Shown here one piece after another: positions 6,258 to 17,885 of a DNA stretch of 25,277 bases. The DNA is from Sarcodiotheca gaudichaudii (taxonomy: Eukaryota; Rhodophyta; Florideophyceae; Gigartinales; Solieriaceae). Each line of letters opens with the position of its first letter. Position 1 is the first letter of the stretch. The stretch spans positions 1-25,277 of the forward strand of contig JAUKVZ010000023.1 of the NCBI GenBank assembly GCA_032355985.1, read 5' to 3'. The translations under genes and the position numbers were made by a program. Below the pieces are notes generated by a model that saw only the letters and a list, made by a program, of their open reading frames with translations, was not told the origin of the DNA and searched no databases.

Positions 6258-6926
6258 ATGCCCACCCGCCAAATGGTGAATGCCGCAAAACAGACAACGG
6301 ACCGCAAGCAGGGTCGTCCGTCGGAAAAAAGCGCCCATCCCGACCTGGAGGAAAAGCTGATCCGGGCGGCGTTGAAAGTGTTTGGCGCAAAAGGCTTCGA
6401 CGGCGCCTCTCTCAGTCAGATCGCGAGGCTTGCACAGACCGATATTGCCTTGATCCGCTATTATTTCGGATCCAAACACGGCCTTTGGCAAATGGCGCTC
6501 TCGCGACTAGGCGAAGAGCTGAGCCACGAAGGAATGCGCGTGCTTGCGGAGACGGCAAACCAAAGTGCAGCTCAGCGCCTGAAAGCGGCTATTGCCTGGT
6601 TTCTCACCATGTCGGCGCATCGGCCATATGTGAGCCGTATCATTGTCAGCGAAGGCAATGACACGGGCGCCCGTGGTCGCTTCATTGCGAAAGAGTTTGT
6701 GGGGCCCTTCTACAAGATAATGGCAGACCTGATTGACGAGGCGAAACAGGAAGGAACCGTTCCTGATGTTGCAACACGCACCATCTTTTTCATGATCACC
6801 CATGGCGGTTCCTTCCCCATGGCGATGCCAACCCTCACCAACGCATTTCCCGGCGGCAAGATCGAAAACAACAAAGCACTCGCCGCCCATATCAACGCAA
6901 TCACATCGCTGATCATCCAAGAATAA
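6258..6926 (+). CDS. TetR/AcrR family transcriptional regulator
   Basis: A 222-residue protein. A basic, polar lead (residues 1-28) precedes the TetR helix-turn-helix (about 33-80: LIRAALKVFGAKGFDGASL, then IARLAQTDIALIRYYFGSKHGLW). The helical C-terminal domain lacks a recognised ligand motif. ATG 6258 is used; an ATG at 6273 is possible, and neither has a strong ribosome-binding site. It is 10 bp upstream of the MBL-fold gene and divergent from the DAPG-hydrolase-like gene, with two palindromes between. It is therefore the likely repressor of this small hydrolase module, with the module's substrate as the probable inducer (inference). Confidence 0.9.
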   Translation: MPTRQMVNAAKQTTDRKQGRPSEKSAHPDLEEKLIRAALKVFGAKGFDGASLSQIARLAQTDIALIRYYFGSKHGLWQMALSRLGEELSHEGMRVLAETANQSAAQRLKAAIAWFLTMSAHRPYVSRIIVSEGNDTGARGRFIAKEFVGPFYKIMADLIDEAKQEGTVPDVATRTIFFMITHGGSFPMAMPTLTNAFPGGKIENNKALAAHINAITSLIIQE

Positions 6927-6936
6927 CGAGGTTCCA

Positions 6937-7980
6937 ATGGCCAGATACGGAAAAATTGTCGCTCTTCTTGCTGTTGTTTGCATCGGCGTCTTGTTTGCGC
7001 TGTTTCCGTCCATCCAGAAACTTTTGATCGACTGGCAAATCGGCCAGTCAATTGAAGGATCACTGGCGGCACAGAATATTTCTGATACACGTTTTGAAAT
7101 CCTCTTCTGCGGAACGGGCTCACCACAATTTAGTCCCGACAGAGGTCAGCCATGCCTCGGCATCATCGCCGGCGGAAAATTCTTCCTATTCGATACAGGA
7201 CAAGGCGCTGCCCAGCGTTTGAATCAGGTCGAGGCACCTATTCGACATCTCGACACCATCTTCCTGACGCATCTGCATTCAGATCACATGTCGGGCCTTG
7301 GCGAGACCTTGCACAATGGCTGGCTCTATGGACGCCAACACCTCGTCGAAGTCATGGGCCCACCCGGCACCGAAAAGCTACTCGCTGGTTTCCAGCGCTC
7401 ATATGAAGATGACATCGAAGAACGCCAGCGGGTCGTGGGCGAAGAATACCTGGACACCCGATCCGGCATGGGCAACGCGACCGATATTTGGGTTGATGGA
7501 GACGAGCTAAAGGCAGTCTACAACAAAGATGGCGTCGAGATCTTCGCATTCCACGTAGACCATCCAGACTGGCCACATGCATATGGCTACCGTATTGAGT
7601 TTCAGGGAAAGAGCGTCGTAATCAGCGGCGACACAAAATACTCTGAAAACCTGGTAAAACACGCGTCAGGTGCGGACTACCTCATACACGAAGTCCTGAA
7701 TGCGTCAATGATGGACATGGTCGCCAACCATTTGGAGCGTTTCCGTGCCAACATTAATCGCGAGCGACTAGATCGCATCGCAGCCGCACACACATCAACA
7801 TTTGAAGTCGCGGAAGCGGCAAAACAGGCCAATGTTCAAAAATTGATTGTGACACATCTCATCCCGCCGGTTCCCGCCAATGCTCTCGCGGAGAGCGCCT
7901 TTATTGAGGGCATGGACGGCGTTTTTTCCGGTGAGATCATTGTTGCGCGGGACAATATGCGGCTGATCCTGATTGAGTAG
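6937..7980 (+). CDS. Membrane-anchored metallo-beta-lactamase-fold hydrolase
   Basis: A 347-residue protein. Residues 6-23 form a hydrophobic N-terminal anchor or uncleaved signal, so the enzyme probably faces the periplasm. The MBL fold follows, with CGTGSP (58-63), LFDTGQG (84-90) and the zinc signature THLHSDH (111-117). Further zinc-binding candidates are VDHPDWPH, SGDTKYSENL and VTHLIPP. The order and spacing resemble the RNase Z/arylsulfatase-like branch of the superfamily, which includes ribonucleases, phosphodiesterases and sulfatases, so activity cannot be fixed. It is in an operon with the preceding TetR gene (10-bp gap) and divergent from a second predicted envelope hydrolase, which suggests shared use on one extracytoplasmic compound. 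It ends convergently with the next TetR gene. Confidence 0.9.
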   Translation: MARYGKIVALLAVVCIGVLFALFPSIQKLLIDWQIGQSIEGSLAAQNISDTRFEILFCGTGSPQFSPDRGQPCLGIIAGGKFFLFDTGQGAAQRLNQVEAPIRHLDTIFLTHLHSDHMSGLGETLHNGWLYGRQHLVEVMGPPGTEKLLAGFQRSYEDDIEERQRVVGEEYLDTRSGMGNATDIWVDGDELKAVYNKDGVEIFAFHVDHPDWPHAYGYRIEFQGKSVVISGDTKYSENLVKHASGADYLIHEVLNASMMDMVANHLERFRANINRERLDRIAAAHTSTFEVAEAAKQANVQKLIVTHLIPPVPANALAESAFIEGMDGVFSGEIIVARDNMRLILIE

Positions 7981-11774: not shown

Positions 11775-13283
11775 ATGAGTGACGAGAGCAGCAAGACCGA
11801 TCAGCCGGGTTTCGCGGAAGCACCGGGAGCAAATTTTGTTCCCGAAAACCCTGTTGCACGTGCGCCAAACGGCGATCCGCTGGAACCCTTCACGCCACAC
11901 CGACCGGAACGCCCGGAAAAATCCGAAGGCGGCGTCGCCTTCAAGCTGGTCTCGGAATTTGAGCCGAAGGGCGACCAGCCCACCGCCATCGCCGAACTGG
12001 TGGAACAGGTAAACGCGGGCGAGCGCGACCAGGTGCTGCTCGGCGTCACCGGCTCGGGCAAGACTTTCACCATGGCCAAGGTGATCGAGGCAACCCAGCG
12101 CCCGGCCATCATCCTCGCGCCGAACAAAACGCTGGCCGCCCAGCTCTATGGCGAGTTCAAGAAGTTCTTCCCCGACAATGCGGTGGAATATTTCGTCTCC
12201 TACTATGATTATTACCAGCCGGAAGCCTATGTGGCGCGCACCGACACCTATATCGAGAAGGAAAGCTCGATCAACGAGCAGATCGACCGCATGCGCCACG
12301 CCGCCACCCGCTCGCTGTTGGAACGGGACGATGTCATCATCGTCGCCTCGGTCTCGTGCATCTATGGCATCGGCTCGGTGGAAACCTATTCCGAAATGAC
12401 CTTCACCGTGAAAGCGGGCGACAAGCTGAACCGCAACGGGCTGATCGCCGATCTGGTGGCGCTGCAATACAAGCGCAACGATCAGGCGTTCCAGCGCGGC
12501 ACCTTTCGCGTGCGCGGCGACACGGTGGAAGTCTTCCCCGTCCACCTGGAAGACCGCGCCTGGCGCATCAACATGTTTGGCGACGAGGTGGAGGAGATCG
12601 TCGAGTTCGACCCGCTCACCGGCCACAAGACGGGCAAGCTGCCCCACGTCAAGATCTACGCCAACTCCCACTATGTGACGCCGGGCCCGACGCTCGCCCA
12701 GGCCGCCAGCCAGATCAAGATCGACCTCGACGCGCGCCTGAAGGAACTGAACAGCCAGAACAAGCTGCTGGAAGCCCAGCGCCTGGAACAGCGCTGCACC
12801 TTTGACATTGAGATGATGCTCGCCACCGGCAGCTGCGCCGGCATTGAGAATTATTCCCGCTACCTCACCGCGCGCAAACCGGGCGAGCCGCCGCCCACGC
12901 TGTTTGAATATATCCCCGACAATGCCCTCATCTTTGCCGACGAAAGCCATGTCAGCGTGCCCCAGATCGGCGGCATGTATCGCGGCGACTACAAGCGCAA
13001 ATCCACGCTGGCCGAGTTCGGCTTCCGCCTGCCCAGCTGCATCGACAACCGGCCGCTGAAGTTTGAGGAATGGAACGCCATGCGGCCGCAGACCGTCTAT
13101 GTCTCCGCCCCGCCGGGGCCGTGGGAGATGGAGCAGACCGGCGGTGTGTTTGTGGAACAGGTGATCCGCCCCACCGGCCTCATCGACCCGGTCACCATCA
13201 TCCGCCCTGTGGAGACCCAGGTGGACGACCTGATTGACGAGTGCAAACAGATGGCAGCGAAAGGCCAGCGCGTGCTCGTCACC

Positions 13284-13315
<32 letters not shown>

Positions 13316-14057
13316 GGAATATATGCACGAACAGGGCATTCGCGTGCGCTACATGCATTCCGACATTGAGACGCTGGAGCGCATTGAGATCATTCGCGAC
13401 CTGCGCCTCGGCGCCTTTGACGTGCTGATCGGCATCAACCTGCTGCGCGAGGGCCTGGACATTCCCGAATGCGCCCTGGTGGCTATTCTGGATGCGGACA
13501 AGGAGGGCTTTCTGCGCTCCGAAACCTCGCTGGTGCAGACCATTGGCCGCGCCGCGCGCAACGTGGATGGCCGGGTTATTCTCTATGCGGATCGTATCAC
13601 CGGCTCCATGGAGCGCGCCCTGGCGGAGACGGAACGCCGGCGGGAAAAACAGCAGGCCTATAACAAGGCGCACGGCATCACGCCGGAAAGCGTGCGCTCC
13701 AACATTGGCGACATTCTGGAAAGCGTTTACGAGCAGGACCATGTGCGCGTGGACACCGGCGACACGGTGGAGCTGGTGGGCCACAATCTGCGCGCCCACA
13801 TTCAGGACCTGGAAAAGAAGATGAAGGACGCCGCCAGCGACCTGGAGTTCGAGGAAGCCGCCCGCCTGCGCGACGAAATCCACCGGCTGGAACAGACGGA
13901 ACTCACCATCGCCGACGACCCGTTCGCGCGCCAAAGCGCCGTCGCCGCCGCAGGAGAAAAAGACAGACCTACGGCCCGCTCAACATCAGGCCGCGCCGGC
14001 ACCCGCACGTTCAAGAAATCCGGCCAGACCAAGCCACGAGGTCGTAAGGGGCCTTAG
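11775..14057 (+). CDS. uvrB: Excinuclease ABC subunit B (UvrB)
   Basis: A 760-residue protein. UvrB is the damage-verifying helicase-like subunit of nucleotide excision repair; it receives DNA from UvrA and recruits UvrC. Walker A is GVTGSGKT (90-97), the beta-hairpin that clamps DNA is around [11 protein letters not shown], the DEAD-like box is ADESH, and the helicase C-terminal motif is in QTIGRAARN. The UvrC-binding UVR motif ([21 protein letters not shown]) is near residue 680. It is longer than E. coli UvrB (673) because of a Pro/Glu-rich lead of about 50 residues and a basic Ser/Arg/Lys-rich tail, both common in alphaproteobacterial UvrB. No GTTC-type LexA box was seen upstream. It is convergent with the low-GC SIR2 gene, 40 bp away. 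Confidence 0.99.
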
Positions 14058-14097
14058 AGGTCTAACTCAGAAGAACTAATGGCAAGGTAGAATTTCA

Positions 14098-17000
14098 CTA
14101 GACAATCACTACATCCCTCGCAACTGGTCCTAAAAAGTTGAAGAATATCGACGCACGAACTCTCGATCCCTCCTTCAATACTGTCGCGGTATCGCCCAAA
14201 TCAAAAAACACGGGATAGTCATATCCATCAAAGCGAATTGAGCCTCGACCTGAACGACAATGTTCCACAGACCCGTACAGCATATCTACCTTGCCATCGC
14301 CAGACTTCATCGGATCTCTTAACTGATGACGTGTTTGGTAGTTCATCTGCACCCGTTTCAATACATCAAAAGCCTCGCGTGCAAGTTCATTTTCACCACA
14401 AACGAATAGTTGGCGCGCATGCAACAACTTTCGGTTGTGTTTACCATCTTCATCTCTGTAGGAGCGCCCCAAGTGATGCAGTATAATGTGGTCCACTTCT
14501 TTCTGATCCACATCTTGCTGGTTGCCGTCCATAAGCCACAGCCGAGCCAATTGAAAATGGATGCCATGGTTCGACGGATTTGACTTAAGTGCTTCAGTCA
14601 AAACACTTCTGGCTTTTCCAAACTCGTTTCTCGCTTGATGAATCCTCGCAAGCCTTCGCGCTACTGACGCATCGTGCGGAGAGTGATCAAATGCCTTCTC
14701 CATAGCAACCAATGCTGCATCGGAATTACCCAGAATTTCATTTAGTTCTGAATCTTCGGACAACAATCGATGATCATTTGGAAAACGGTCGAGACCATCC
14801 TCTATTATAGTTTCGACTTTACGAATTAAATCACCGAGAGACTCTCCAAATTGTTGAGTTGGGTTAGCATCAAAACGACGTTTTTCATCACGCAATTCGT
14901 CAAGTCTTACCTTTGCGATTGTATCCCAAGAATGCGCAGTTTTCGCGGTTCTTAACAATCCTGTACATATCTTAACGGCAGCCTCACGCAGCGCAGCCTT
15001 TTCCGCGTCATTTCTCGACACCTTTGCTCTTCTATAAAGTAGCTCAGCTCTTGAATGCGATATTGCTTTGTTGTGAGGATCAATCTTCGCTGCCTGTTCC
15101 AGAAAGACTTCAGCTTGATCAAGATACTCCAAAGCCTGCGCCGACCCCCAGCCCGTCTCCGCGTAAAGCCAATAGAGTCCACGTTGCTGATACAAAAAGG
15201 CACGGTCACCTAGGGACTCGATCGCACACGAATAAACTTCGTCACCTAACAATGTTTCTGGTATCGCCTTCCGAAGGTTATGAGCCCGAGTAAGATGCTT
15301 TATTACCGTCTCGTCGTAGCTGAACCCAGGATTCAGACGGGACAAAAGCCGTTTCATATTTTCGAGACGCTCAGCGTTATCTACTGCACTTCCTTCGTAG
15401 ACCATCTCAGCAATTTGTCGATGCCTAGCGGTGTAAACAAAATCACCAATTTTTCGATCATACCTACTGCGAACCACGCCTTCCAATGGGGCAAAAAATC
15501 GATCTCGGAAGTCTTCGAAATTGAGCCCATGGACCCTTGCGATCAAACCTGCTCGTACTGGGACACCCAAACGGTGCATTGAACAAATATCGAGATAAAA
15601 CAACCTTGCTTCCATCGGAAGAATGTTGGTGTATTCATCGTTTACAATCTGGAGAAACTCACGTCCGCGAAGTGTTTCATACAAAGACACAAGAAGCTGT
15701 CCATCGTAACGTTTCTGAAAGCGCTCCATACGATCTGCCTTCGACACAAAGGTGAGATCTCCCAAAAGACTATGTTGCTCGAGTTTATCCAACAGTCGTT
15801 GAATAGCTGTTGGAGTTAGTTTTTCAATCAAATACTCCTGATCGACATAGTCAGTTACGCTTTCTTCATTGCCGATGTTAATTTCGTTGACGCGACCAGA
15901 AAGAATGAGAAATAGGCTCCAATGTTCATTGCGAGCAATCGAAATCAAATCACTCAACTCGTCCACGTGTCGCTGAAAGTCGTCTACAAAGAGGTAAATC
16001 GGCTTGTTTGTGAGACTGACCATCTCCCTAATTCGGTTTACATCGACAGAACCATCACGCCCAACAAACACGGTGGGGCCGCCTACGGTTTCCTCTGTTG
16101 TATATGCAAGCCGTTTGAGAAAGACTGTCCGTCCAGCACCAGCATATGACTTAACCAAGATCACACGCGGCAAGGCTCCCTGAGCAACCACCAGTTCCTC
16201 TTCTAGTATTGTTCTTTGCAGTGAGCGAACAACATCCAACTCGTCTACAAGAAACTTCCAGCCATCACTGACCCCCTCGTAGAATGATCGTGGAGTCTCG
16301 TCGTCATCAAATTCGATATCCGCCAGGTAAGTCGCGGATGAGCGGAAGTAGTGAACAAGATCTTCGCTTTCTCGAGCATTTACAGAAATATGCTTATGAA
16401 AGCCGGTCTTCATCTCCTCAGAAACAAAGCTTGATACCCTACGTGTACTTATGGGTATCTCACCGTCCAGTTTTTTGAGAAGGTCAGAAAAAGTTCCCTG
16501 CAACGGCAAGATTTTCTTAGAAGACCAGTAGAGCACCTCCTCTTCTTCAAGGTCAGGGGAAACAATGAAGTGAGGAGGCCTATTATCCCCATCTCTGATA
16601 AACTCATTTAGCACATGTAAGATGTTGGCGTCTGAAAATCCATGCCCGCAAAAAACGATGTTTTTTGTCTTAGACGCTTCCATCAAGAGATCGAATTGTC
16701 CAACTCGGCCTTCGCGGAAGTTCACAATCTGATCTGTGCTCGCAATCAGGGGAGGCCTTTCCTCCTGATAGTCTGTCAAACAACCATGAAGTTTCACATA
16801 GGCGACATTTTTGTGTCCGTCGGGCTCATGGAATTCCTTTTTGTCATTCGAAAGCACAACAAGATCTTGAAGTGGTTCGTCAACTTTTTGATAAGCCCTT
16901 TCAATCACCAAGTCATAATTTGTCGAGAAGATCGACGACCAGACGAAGGTCGGTATGAGCAAATGGTGATCTGCAGGCTGAAAAGGTTGGAGTCTGTCAT

Positions 17001-17265
17001 GAACAAATTTCTGTACATTGCGAACGCCTTGGGCAGAAACTGCGAGGTCATAAATGTAACGAAATTCTCGATCCTTAAATTTACCCTTCAAAAACGCATC
17101 AGACAATTCCGCACCAAGGCCTCGACCGTCAGGAATCGATTGCTTTTTTCCATCCACTGCTCCACGGGAGGCACCAGCCCCTAGAAATAGGACAGCCCGC
17201 CTATTTTTGACAGCGTCAATGAGTAGGTGGTCGTTAGCCAAATCCGAAACCTTTTCCACCTGCAT
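14098..17265 (-). CDS. SIR2 - STAND-like NTPase - TPR - OB-fold protein, candidate anti-phage defence
   Basis: A 1055-residue protein with four regions. (1) SIR2 NAD-binding domain, about 1-270: FLGAGAS (27-33), STNYD (114-118), KLHG with the putative catalytic His160, and CGHGFSD (206-212). (2) P-loop NTPase, about 335-600: Walker-A-like SYAGAGRT (373-380) with arginine in place of the usual lysine, Walker B PIYLFVDD (422-429). (3) Helical TPR-type repeats, about 690-960. (4) A C-terminal OB/cold-shock-like domain, about 997-1055. Known SIR2-STAND proteins such as Avs5, and SIR2-TPR proteins such as DSR-type, sense phage proteins through the repeats and then destroy NAD; that role is inferred here. 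ATG 17265 fits AGGTGG at 9 nt; a TTG at 17271 is the alternative. The gene is solitary and visibly lower in GC than its neighbours (for example 23/60 G+C at 14761-14820 against 37/60 at 12721-12780 in uvrB), a sign of transfer. Confidence 0.88.
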   Translation of the reverse strand: MQVEKVSDLANDHLLIDAVKNRRAVLFLGAGASRGAVDGKKQSIPDGRGLGAELSDAFLKGKFKDREFRYIYDLAVSAQGVRNVQKFVHDRLQPFQPADHHLLIPTFVWSSIFSTNYDLVIERAYQKVDEPLQDLVVLSNDKKEFHEPDGHKNVAYVKLHGCLTDYQEERPPLIASTDQIVNFREGRVGQFDLLMEASKTKNIVFCGHGFSDANILHVLNEFIRDGDNRPPHFIVSPDLEEEEVLYWSSKKILPLQGTFSDLLKKLDGEIPISTRRVSSFVSEEMKTGFHKHISVNARESEDLVHYFRSSATYLADIEFDDDETPRSFYEGVSDGWKFLVDELDVVRSLQRTILEEELVVAQGALPRVILVKSYAGAGRTVFLKRLAYTTEETVGGPTVFVGRDGSVDVNRIREMVSLTNKPIYLFVDDFQRHVDELSDLISIARNEHWSLFLILSGRVNEINIGNEESVTDYVDQEYLIEKLTPTAIQRLLDKLEQHSLLGDLTFVSKADRMERFQKRYDGQLLVSLYETLRGREFLQIVNDEYTNILPMEARLFYLDICSMHRLGVPVRAGLIARVHGLNFEDFRDRFFAPLEGVVRSRYDRKIGDFVYTARHRQIAEMVYEGSAVDNAERLENMKRLLSRLNPGFSYDETVIKHLTRAHNLRKAIPETLLGDEVYSCAIESLGDRAFLYQQRGLYWLYAETGWGSAQALEYLDQAEVFLEQAAKIDPHNKAISHSRAELLYRRAKVSRNDAEKAALREAAVKICTGLLRTAKTAHSWDTIAKVRLDELRDEKRRFDANPTQQFGESLGDLIRKVETIIEDGLDRFPNDHRLLSEDSELNEILGNSDAALVAMEKAFDHSPHDASVARRLARIHQARNEFGKARSVLTEALKSNPSNHGIHFQLARLWLMDGNQQDVDQKEVDHIILHHLGRSYRDEDGKHNRKLLHARQLFVCGENELAREAFDVLKRVQMNYQTRHQLRDPMKSGDGKVDMLYGSVEHCRSGRGSIRFDGYDYPVFFDLGDTATVLKEGSRVRASIFFNFLGPVARDVVIV

Positions 17266-17320
17266 ACTCAAGATCCACCTTATGTGTTCATGCTGAATAA
17301 GAAATTCTTCTATTTAGGAT

Positions 17321-17348
17321 AGAATAGCGAAAGCCTCCCCCTAAACAA
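17321..17348 (-). promoter_or_regulatory. Probable promoter of the SIR2-NTPase gene
   Basis: On the minus strand, TTGTTT (17348-17343) and TATTCT (17326-17321) are spaced by 16 bp, a fair sigma-70-type promoter about 55 bp upstream of the chosen ATG. An AAGAA-A-TTCTT palindrome at 17299-17309 lies just downstream and could be a control site. Confidence 0.45.
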
Positions 17349-17369
17349 ATGATTCTGCTATGCTGAGCA

Positions 17370-17584
17370 CGCGGTGGGCAAATTCCCGCCGTGGGGCTTA
17401 AGAACCCCGTCCCAGGACATGCGGTTACGCGTCTTTAGGTTTTACCTAAGCAGACATATGTGGCCGGGTGACGGCTACGTATGTCCAGGGTTTCGACCTA
17501 AAGGTACCGTGCCCTTCGTCTTGGGAGGGTTCTTAACATCCGGCTTCTGACGCCGGAGAACCCCTTGCACGCAAAACGAGGGGT
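17370..17584 (+). ncRNA. Structured leader RNA with mutually exclusive stems, riboswitch candidate
   Basis: Read on the + strand, the region folds extensively. Hairpin A is 17370-17378 with 17385-17393 (9 bp, two G-U). Closing stem P1 is 17398-17407 with 17527-17536 (10 perfect pairs). Inside it, P2 is 17411-17420 with 17481-17490 (9 pairs around one A-A mismatch), enclosing two hairpins (17431-17455 and 17460-17478). After P1, GGGTTCT (17527-17533) can instead pair with AGAACCC (17557-17563), extended by CCGGC/GCCGG (17540-17556). Finally ACCCCT (17560-17565) can pair with AGGGGT (17579-17584), which covers the ribosome-binding site of the gene at 17589. These pairings compete in the way expected of a translational on/off switch. 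No T run follows, so control at translation fits better than termination. It matches no riboswitch class I recognise. A trans-acting RNA or an RNA read from the other strand is possible. Confidence 0.55.
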
Positions 17585-17588
17585 AGAC

Positions 17589-17885
17589 ATGACCCACGAT
17601 GACAATGAGACCGGGGACGACAAGACCGGGGACGACAAGACCGGAAGCGGCGCACCGGCGGACTTTGCCCTGCACTATCTGAAACGCACCAATGGCACGG
17701 ACGTGGAAGCGCTGGACGCGGTGGCGAACCTCGACCCGGAAAAGGCGGCGACCTATCTCGCCCATGTGCACGGCCCCCGCGCGGGCGAGGAGGCACTGCT
17801 GCGCTCGCTCATCTGCGAACGGCAATTGCACCGGGTCGGCGCGCGCTTCTGGCTCGGAATTTATCAGCGCATTGCGGCGGGGTGA
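17589..17885 (+). CDS. Small protein of unknown function, downstream of the structured leader
   Basis: A 98-residue protein. The N-terminus is acidic and low-complexity, with a repeated GDDKT unit encoded by a near-exact 15-bp tandem repeat (about 17612-17646). The rest (residues 25-98) is predicted helical, with LDPEKAATYLAHVHG and EALLRSLICERQLHRVG. There is no signal peptide or membrane segment, and I recognise no family. The start is ATG 17589 behind GAGGGG (17578-17583), 5 nt away; the in-frame TTG at 17565 lies inside the leader stem. The ribosome-binding site can be hidden in a hairpin of the upstream RNA. The stop codon lies inside the first copy of a 70-bp repeat, so the repeat may have been inserted at the 3' end of the gene. 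Confidence 0.65.
   Translation: MTHDDNETGDDKTGDDKTGSGAPADFALHYLKRTNGTDVEALDAVANLDPEKAATYLAHVHGPRAGEEALLRSLICERQLHRVGARFWLGIYQRIAAG

Follow-up and report, generated by a model that had tools for sequence, protein, structure and literature searches.

The described systems closest to the protein considered here are Avs5 (AVAST type 5), DSR2, ThsA and SAMD9. In the available portion of PMC12931631, Avs5 has an NTPase of the nSTAND3 type (PF20720), its Pseudomonas homologues hydrolyse NAD+ through SIR2 when phage is sensed, and replacement of the P-loop Lys by Ala abolishes the immunity given by PaAvs5-1. ThsA is described by its structure depositors as an NAD hydrolase and KomC as an NADase, while published abstracts, the part of that literature drawn on here, give DSR2 as an NADase. 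For SAMD9, the accessible sections of PMC5445408 describe a core order of AlbA, SIR2-like domain, STAND NTPase, TPR and cold-shock-like OB domain, a P-loop with Gly in the place of Lys (GGT/S), loss of AlbA_2 in some members, and bacterial relatives that had already been reported, many with a kinase domain; a SAMD9 fold match has likewise been published for PaAvs5. The present analysis concerns a stretch of 25,277 nucleotides (contig JAUKVZ010000023.1 of assembly GCA_032355985.1, filed under Sarcodiotheca gaudichaudii and here called the window) and a bacterial gene within it, beside uvrB, that joins an NAD-type effector, a STAND NTPase and a C-terminal repeat sensor in one protein, the general plan of SIR2-STAND NLR-like (nucleotide-binding leucine-rich repeat-like) proteins.

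The gene probably encodes a one-gene NLR-like receptor that sits in a hotspot beside uvrB and acts in phage defence by depletion of NAD. This reading is based on the domain order, the conserved SIR2 residues, the foreign composition of the gene and the varied cargo found at the site in related genomes. The open reading frame (ORF) runs uninterrupted for 1,055 codons from an ATG at 17265 to a stop at 14098, and it was modelled with AlphaFold2 (AF2) at a mean pLDDT (predicted local distance difference test) of 86.4 and a pTM (predicted template modelling score) of 0.63. As had been claimed in a preliminary description made from the letters alone, the gene is solitary, is oriented opposite to uvrB and is lower in GC than its surroundings. 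Its neighbours are uvrB and a small ORF at 17565-17885, and it takes up 3168 of the 3283 bases that separate uvrB from a conserved element. Its GC content was 0.460, and 0.438 at third codon positions (GC3), against 0.536-0.648 and 0.555-0.811 in eight other genes of the window (uvrB: 0.622 and 0.811). The composition is thus foreign to the window, as judged by GC and GC3 against these eight genes.

The domains proposed in the preliminary description, a SIR2 domain with a P-loop NTPase and TPR-like repeats, were recovered by profile search both in the window protein and in its family. SIR2_2 matched the window protein at E 9.8e-18 (65 bits against a cut-off of 24.5), the motifs GAGAS, TNYD and KLHG were all present, and SIR2_2 (PF13289) was found in 46/46 scanned family members. 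Asn116, Asp118 and His160 were identical in all 63 rows of an alignment composed of the window protein and 62 full-length sequences (ORF matches with a score of at least 350 and 950-1110 aa, three identical ones removed), a set that omits short, broken and more distant members such as L010 and L038. A search with residues 541-700 returned 59 proteins; in the 46 of these with at least 1000 aa, a second set that may overlap the first, the SIR2 Asn and His were each kept in 46/46. The best structural superpositions of the SIR2 part were to DSR2, ThsA and KomC, with the fold alignment beginning at model residue 5, and a Pfam scan of the window protein gave no match to AlbA. The NTPase is Pfam nSTAND5: nSTAND_NTPase5 (PF25199) matched residues 326-463 at E 7.6e-19 (68.4 bits against a cut-off of 34) and was present in all 46 scanned members. 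TPR_19 (E 2.7e-10) and TPR_14 both scored above their curated cut-offs in the window protein.

The C-terminus had been described beforehand as OB-like. An OB fold was indeed predicted, and by family profile and predicted fold the tail is more exactly a cold-shock domain (CSD). The Pfam CSD model was matched in 19/46 scanned members, and a profile of 44 family tails matched the CSDs of UNR at 1e-11 and CspA at 1e-9. (Alignment A4 comprised 46 of the 63 rows, including four of 11 distant ones, and alignment A6 comprised 44 of these 46, L018 and L031 being omitted for their long tails.) The tail of the window model had a pLDDT of 90.3 and superposed on CspA with TM scores of 0.71-0.77.

The site itself was examined in related genomes. 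By its UvrB the window genome is placed near the order of Parvibaculum, and in five of 40 genomes compared UvrB was 90-91% identical. In these five relatives the main uvrB block had 84.5-86.1% DNA identity and similarity ended at the uvrB stop codon, to resume in four of them at a roughly 200-bp element; genome G024 is without the element, and similarity there resumes further on. The intervals of the six genomes measured 2.7-3.5 kb (the end point in G024 being chosen by us). Their GC content was 0.46-0.50, that of uvrB about 0.62, and 0/15 pairs of them had common DNA at E 1e-3. In four of the five close relatives the cargo was a gene family other than SIR2-STAND, and the fifth, G025, carried on the same strand a SIR2-STAND relative that was 37% identical. 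G021 encoded an OLD/GajA-like ATPase-TOPRIM protein (5.4e-53) next to an ORF with no match to a family. The interval of G024 contained genes for a PD-Lambda-2_B-like protein (3.8e-33), a thymidylate synthase and an aGPT-PPlase3-like protein. That of G023 had a TIR-like gene with two unmatched ORFs, and that of G027 a protein with HD-CE and HSP90-like ATPase domains. For the window and its five nearest genomes, the uvrB-side interval therefore looks like a defence hotspot. Twenty further uvrB-side stretches of the order (UvrB about 75-82%, except for one repeat of G025) had another gene order after uvrB. The earlier view of a transferred defence islet agrees with this variation at the site and with the presence of a full-length copy in 3/40 genomes of the order (G007, G025 and G053).

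Two of the cargoes are of interest in themselves. The genes of G024 (L132:4448-6396 and 6407-7814), encoding the thymidylate synthase, the PD-Lambda-2_B-like protein and an alpha-glutamyl/putrescinyl thymine pyrophosphorylase-like protein (5.7e-109), raise the possibility of DNA-base hypermodification in a chromosomal hotspot. The main cargo of G027 (L135:4538-7177, minus strand; 879 aa) is a candidate defence gene. The element that bounds the interval on the right was 81-84% identical in three relatives and 70% in one, and was found in four copies in G027, two in G023, one in G021, one in G025 and none in G024, G053 or G007. Its consensus could be folded, with little covariation. No family reached its gathering score in an Rfam scan of the window; below that threshold, 17358-17412 on the plus strand resembled RF03163 (a1b1 target of C4 antisense RNA; 27.2 bits against 46.7), and one of four extra copies that were fetched also matched RF03163 (E 0.0046).

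The SIR2-nSTAND5-TPR-CSD family is widespread and patchily distributed. Among plasmid records, tblastn gave 15 with a match, of which 14 covered at least 80% of the query at 22-30% identity; of the 15, nine were conjugative and three mobilizable. Nine of the 15 matches were in Klebsiella, eight of them near-identical and split in annotation. No match was obtained in phage records. With an alignment as query, virus-classed contigs yielded 16 loci, among them 8 nearly full-length copies, and with the single protein none. From the scan of genome contigs, 80 loci were retained of 247 confirmed relatives. A quick tree of 65 rows, of which the 49 labelled ones cover 12 phyla by record title, grouped the window protein with the G025 copy at 100% support in the Shimodaira-Hasegawa-like approximate likelihood ratio test (SH-aLRT), the only support computed; the position of the G053 row is unsafe, the choice of start codon having shortened it to 731 aa. 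A housekeeping role was rejected, given the 3/40 genomes with a full-length copy and the copies on plasmids, in a region resembling an integrative and conjugative element (ICE) and on virus-classed contigs. Housekeeping context, normal codon use and loss of SIR2 residues had been named beforehand as findings that would speak against a defence gene; all three were looked for, codon use through GC3, and none held.

Several individual copies deserve mention. In G034 a 164-aa open frame (L139, G034:C9:92669-93067) corresponds to C-terminal profile positions 901-1034 only (E 2.2e-33) and is possibly a remnant or a stand-alone sensor tail. L031:1-8162, from a contig of Rhodopseudomonas sp. AAP120, and L032:5015-13176, from Parvibaculum indicum, are 99.9% identical over 8.2 kb with the same SIR2-STAND gene, through either recent transfer or assembly contamination. 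Copies broken into several ORFs were seen at L006, L009, L057, L053, L044 and L023, some of them on Klebsiella and Acinetobacter plasmids. At L038 another ORF with a match to the family profile (13511-14323, minus strand; 46 bits) lies near a family member on the opposite strand.

Homologues were observed in mobile or defence-related surroundings. The plasmid copies adjoin insertion sequence (IS) elements and resolvases, the L007 copy adjoins a type I restriction-modification system, and the L004 copy lies in the ICE-like region with VapBC beside it and an Abi gene at a distance of about 6 kb. Neighbours were defined as ORFs of 110-1499 aa within 3.5 kb, at most two per side, with 15 loci dropped as near-duplicate, double-held or broken. 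When the resulting 164 ORFs near 48 homologues were searched with PADLOC at 1e-15, the two halves of the set matched 106 and 31 models, and the first 25 of each half included type I, II and IIG restriction enzymes, AbiD, AbiE, DISARM-like, MADS-like and PDC-S31 models. Among 130 control ORFs (of 225), 19 models were matched, including methyltransferases and AriA-, NsnB-, MADS-2-, PDC-S31-, PDC-M55A- and HEC-03B-like ones, and no restriction endonuclease or Abi model was among these 19. The comparison is only suggestive of a defence context.

Table 1. Features of the window and of the aligned family.
Feature	Coordinates	Strand	Basis
SIR2 - nSTAND5 - TPR - cold-shock protein, intact, 1055 aa	14098..17265	-	ORF, translation, Pfam, AF2 model
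SIR2 effector domain, residues about 12-272, catalytic-type Asn116 and His160	16450..17232	-	SIR2_2 match
nSTAND_NTPase5 module, residues about 326-540	15646..16290	-	PF25199 match
Walker A SYAGAGRT, residues 373-380, with Arg379 in place of Lys	16126..16149	-	Translation, family alignment
Family-specific stretch separating NTPase from TPR, residues 541-690	15196..15645	-	Alignment A5
TPR-like helical arm, residues about 691-970	14356..15195	-	Pfam TPR matches; successive helices in model
Predicted C-terminal cold-shock domain (CSD, OB fold), residues about 990-1055	14101..14298	-	Family profile and predicted fold
uvrB, left anchor	11775..14057	+	ORF; similarity to five relatives
Variable hotspot interval, uvrB to conserved element	14058..17340	.	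Unrelated DNA in five relatives
Conserved element, about 200 bp, predicted structure, right anchor	17341..17557	+	Similarity to relatives
Distant-clade rows without Walker A Lys: L060, L061, L064, L065, L068, L069, L071, L072, L074, L075, L077			Alignment

Under the proposed defence function, the TPR-CSD arm would recognise a phage product, either protein or nucleic acid, upon which the nSTAND module would change state and assemble the protein. The clustered SIR2 domains would then hydrolyse NAD+, by analogy to Avs5, and infected cells would halt before phage release.

A number of observations weigh against this reading. In the neighbourhood comparison, MADS-2 and PDC-S31 models occurred in both the neighbour and the control sets, the controls came from other taxa, the counts are of models and not of distinct proteins, and at least two of the neighbour ORFs (L044:6076-6936 and L038:13508-14323) are themselves pieces of SIR2-STAND genes or SIR2 genes. 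At the hotspot, the TIR-like match in G023 was weak (1.5e-7), and the cargo of G027 reached only 4.2e-6 with PADLOC. The window protein alone falls short of the Pfam CSD model, and two CSD aromatics kept in 45/53 and 50/53 core rows are R and S in the window copy. Finally, the Arg in place of the Walker A Lys tells against a working switch in this copy, since Lys to Ala ends the immunity of PaAvs5-1 in the part of the published account available.

The last two points are also the substance of the first alternative, that the family is defensive and the window copy is decaying, its Walker A Arg and altered CSD aromatics marking a receptor that no longer switches. The preliminary description had correctly read the Arg in SYAGAGRT, and it had taken it for a trait of the domain set, which did not hold. 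The Walker A Lys was present in 51/52 core rows, the sole exception being the window copy; Arg379 was unique to that copy among the 63 aligned rows and absent from the 46 further relatives, in which Lys was found in 43/46, T in two and V in one. In the sequences aligned, the Arg is thus private to the window copy. Decay is nevertheless an improbable explanation, as the reading frame of 1055 aa is unbroken and the SIR2 residues remain. In addition, the Walker A Lys is replaced by T, I, V or M in 11/11 rows of the distant clade, which retain the SIR2 catalytic residues; this suggests that parts of the family can do without the Lys. With both the Arg and the altered CSD, the window copy may be a poor first choice for experiments; most relatives keep the Lys and the CSD aromatics.

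Cold-shock domains usually bind RNA or single-stranded DNA (ssDNA). Together with the match of the tail profile to the UNR CSDs, this could point to a regulator of RNA stress, or one resembling a toxin-antitoxin system, whose CSD senses cellular RNA rather than phage. That role is unlikely: the patchy spread, the mobile carriers and the exchange with defence-like cargo fit defence better, and the interval, filled almost entirely by the gene, has no room for a partner. Some NAD-using defence proteins produce signals, and the SIR2 domain might accordingly make or process an NAD-derived signal instead of destroying NAD; this is rather less likely still, for a second effector gene does not fit the interval and the closest solved SIR2 folds are NADases.

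That the window protein is simply a member of Avs5 is very unlikely, despite a common plan of N-terminal SIR2, central STAND NTPase and C-terminal helical repeats in a single gene, and despite EfAvs5 being the best match in the whole-model fold search (E 7.9e-23, TM 0.36/0.44) and having matches to the profiles of the family (2.5e-27) and of the NTPase region (1.5e-10). The NTPase described for Avs5 is nSTAND3, whereas the window family has nSTAND5 (46/46); nSTAND3 gave no match to the window protein even at E 1 and was found in 3/46 members (best 2.2e-6). The PADLOC Avs5 model likewise gave the window protein no match at E 1 or below and was matched in 2/46 members (best 2.7e-5), and membership was rejected on these two grounds. 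The EfAvs5 chain has 869 residues, so that the window protein is about 190 longer, with the C-terminal CSD in addition.

In the window protein the DSR2 and ThsA models matched only the SIR2 part, residues 20-242. Membership of DSR2 was rejected at 30.4 bits against an NCBIfam cut-off of 1400, and that of ThsA was likewise rejected. The PADLOC ThsA and PDC-S25 models matched most of the 46 scanned members; for the candidate system PDC-S25, models matched 44/46 and 39/46 (best 5.9e-17), while in the window protein the match was limited to residues 112-224 (E 0.022), and the literature search returned no paper naming that system. No description of the SIR2-nSTAND5-TPR-CSD family was found in the literature searched, most subscription papers and bioRxiv preprints being outside its scope. 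It is apparently a SIR2-STAND family not described before, whose tail may sense nucleic acids, and the other cargo of the uvrB-side hotspot could be mined for new defence systems.

The comparison with SAMD9 concerns the whole domain plan. SAMD9 structures occupied Foldseek ranks 2-7 (E 1.9e-20 to 2.5e-18) at low TM scores of 0.26-0.32, and the NTPase-region profile matched a SAMD9 chain weakly (E 0.068); SAMD9 was absent among the best 60 of 352 whole-length profile matches and among the 50 superposition matches listed. As far as the SAMD9 core is set out in the sections cited above, its order of SIR2, STAND, TPR and cold-shock-type OB is that of the window family, minus AlbA. The window family differs in having neither AlbA nor SAM, in keeping the SIR2 catalytic residues and, for most members, in having Lys in Walker A where SAMD9 is reported in those sections to have Gly. 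We tentatively suggest, as a doubtful extension, that this may be a widespread bacterial antiviral family with the whole SAMD9 core, a live NADase and a CSD sensing phage RNA or ssDNA, and that the SAMD9 core may have descended from such a receptor, its SIR2 domain and P-loop degenerating later. The family offers a bacterial system in which the SAMD9 domain plan could be tested.

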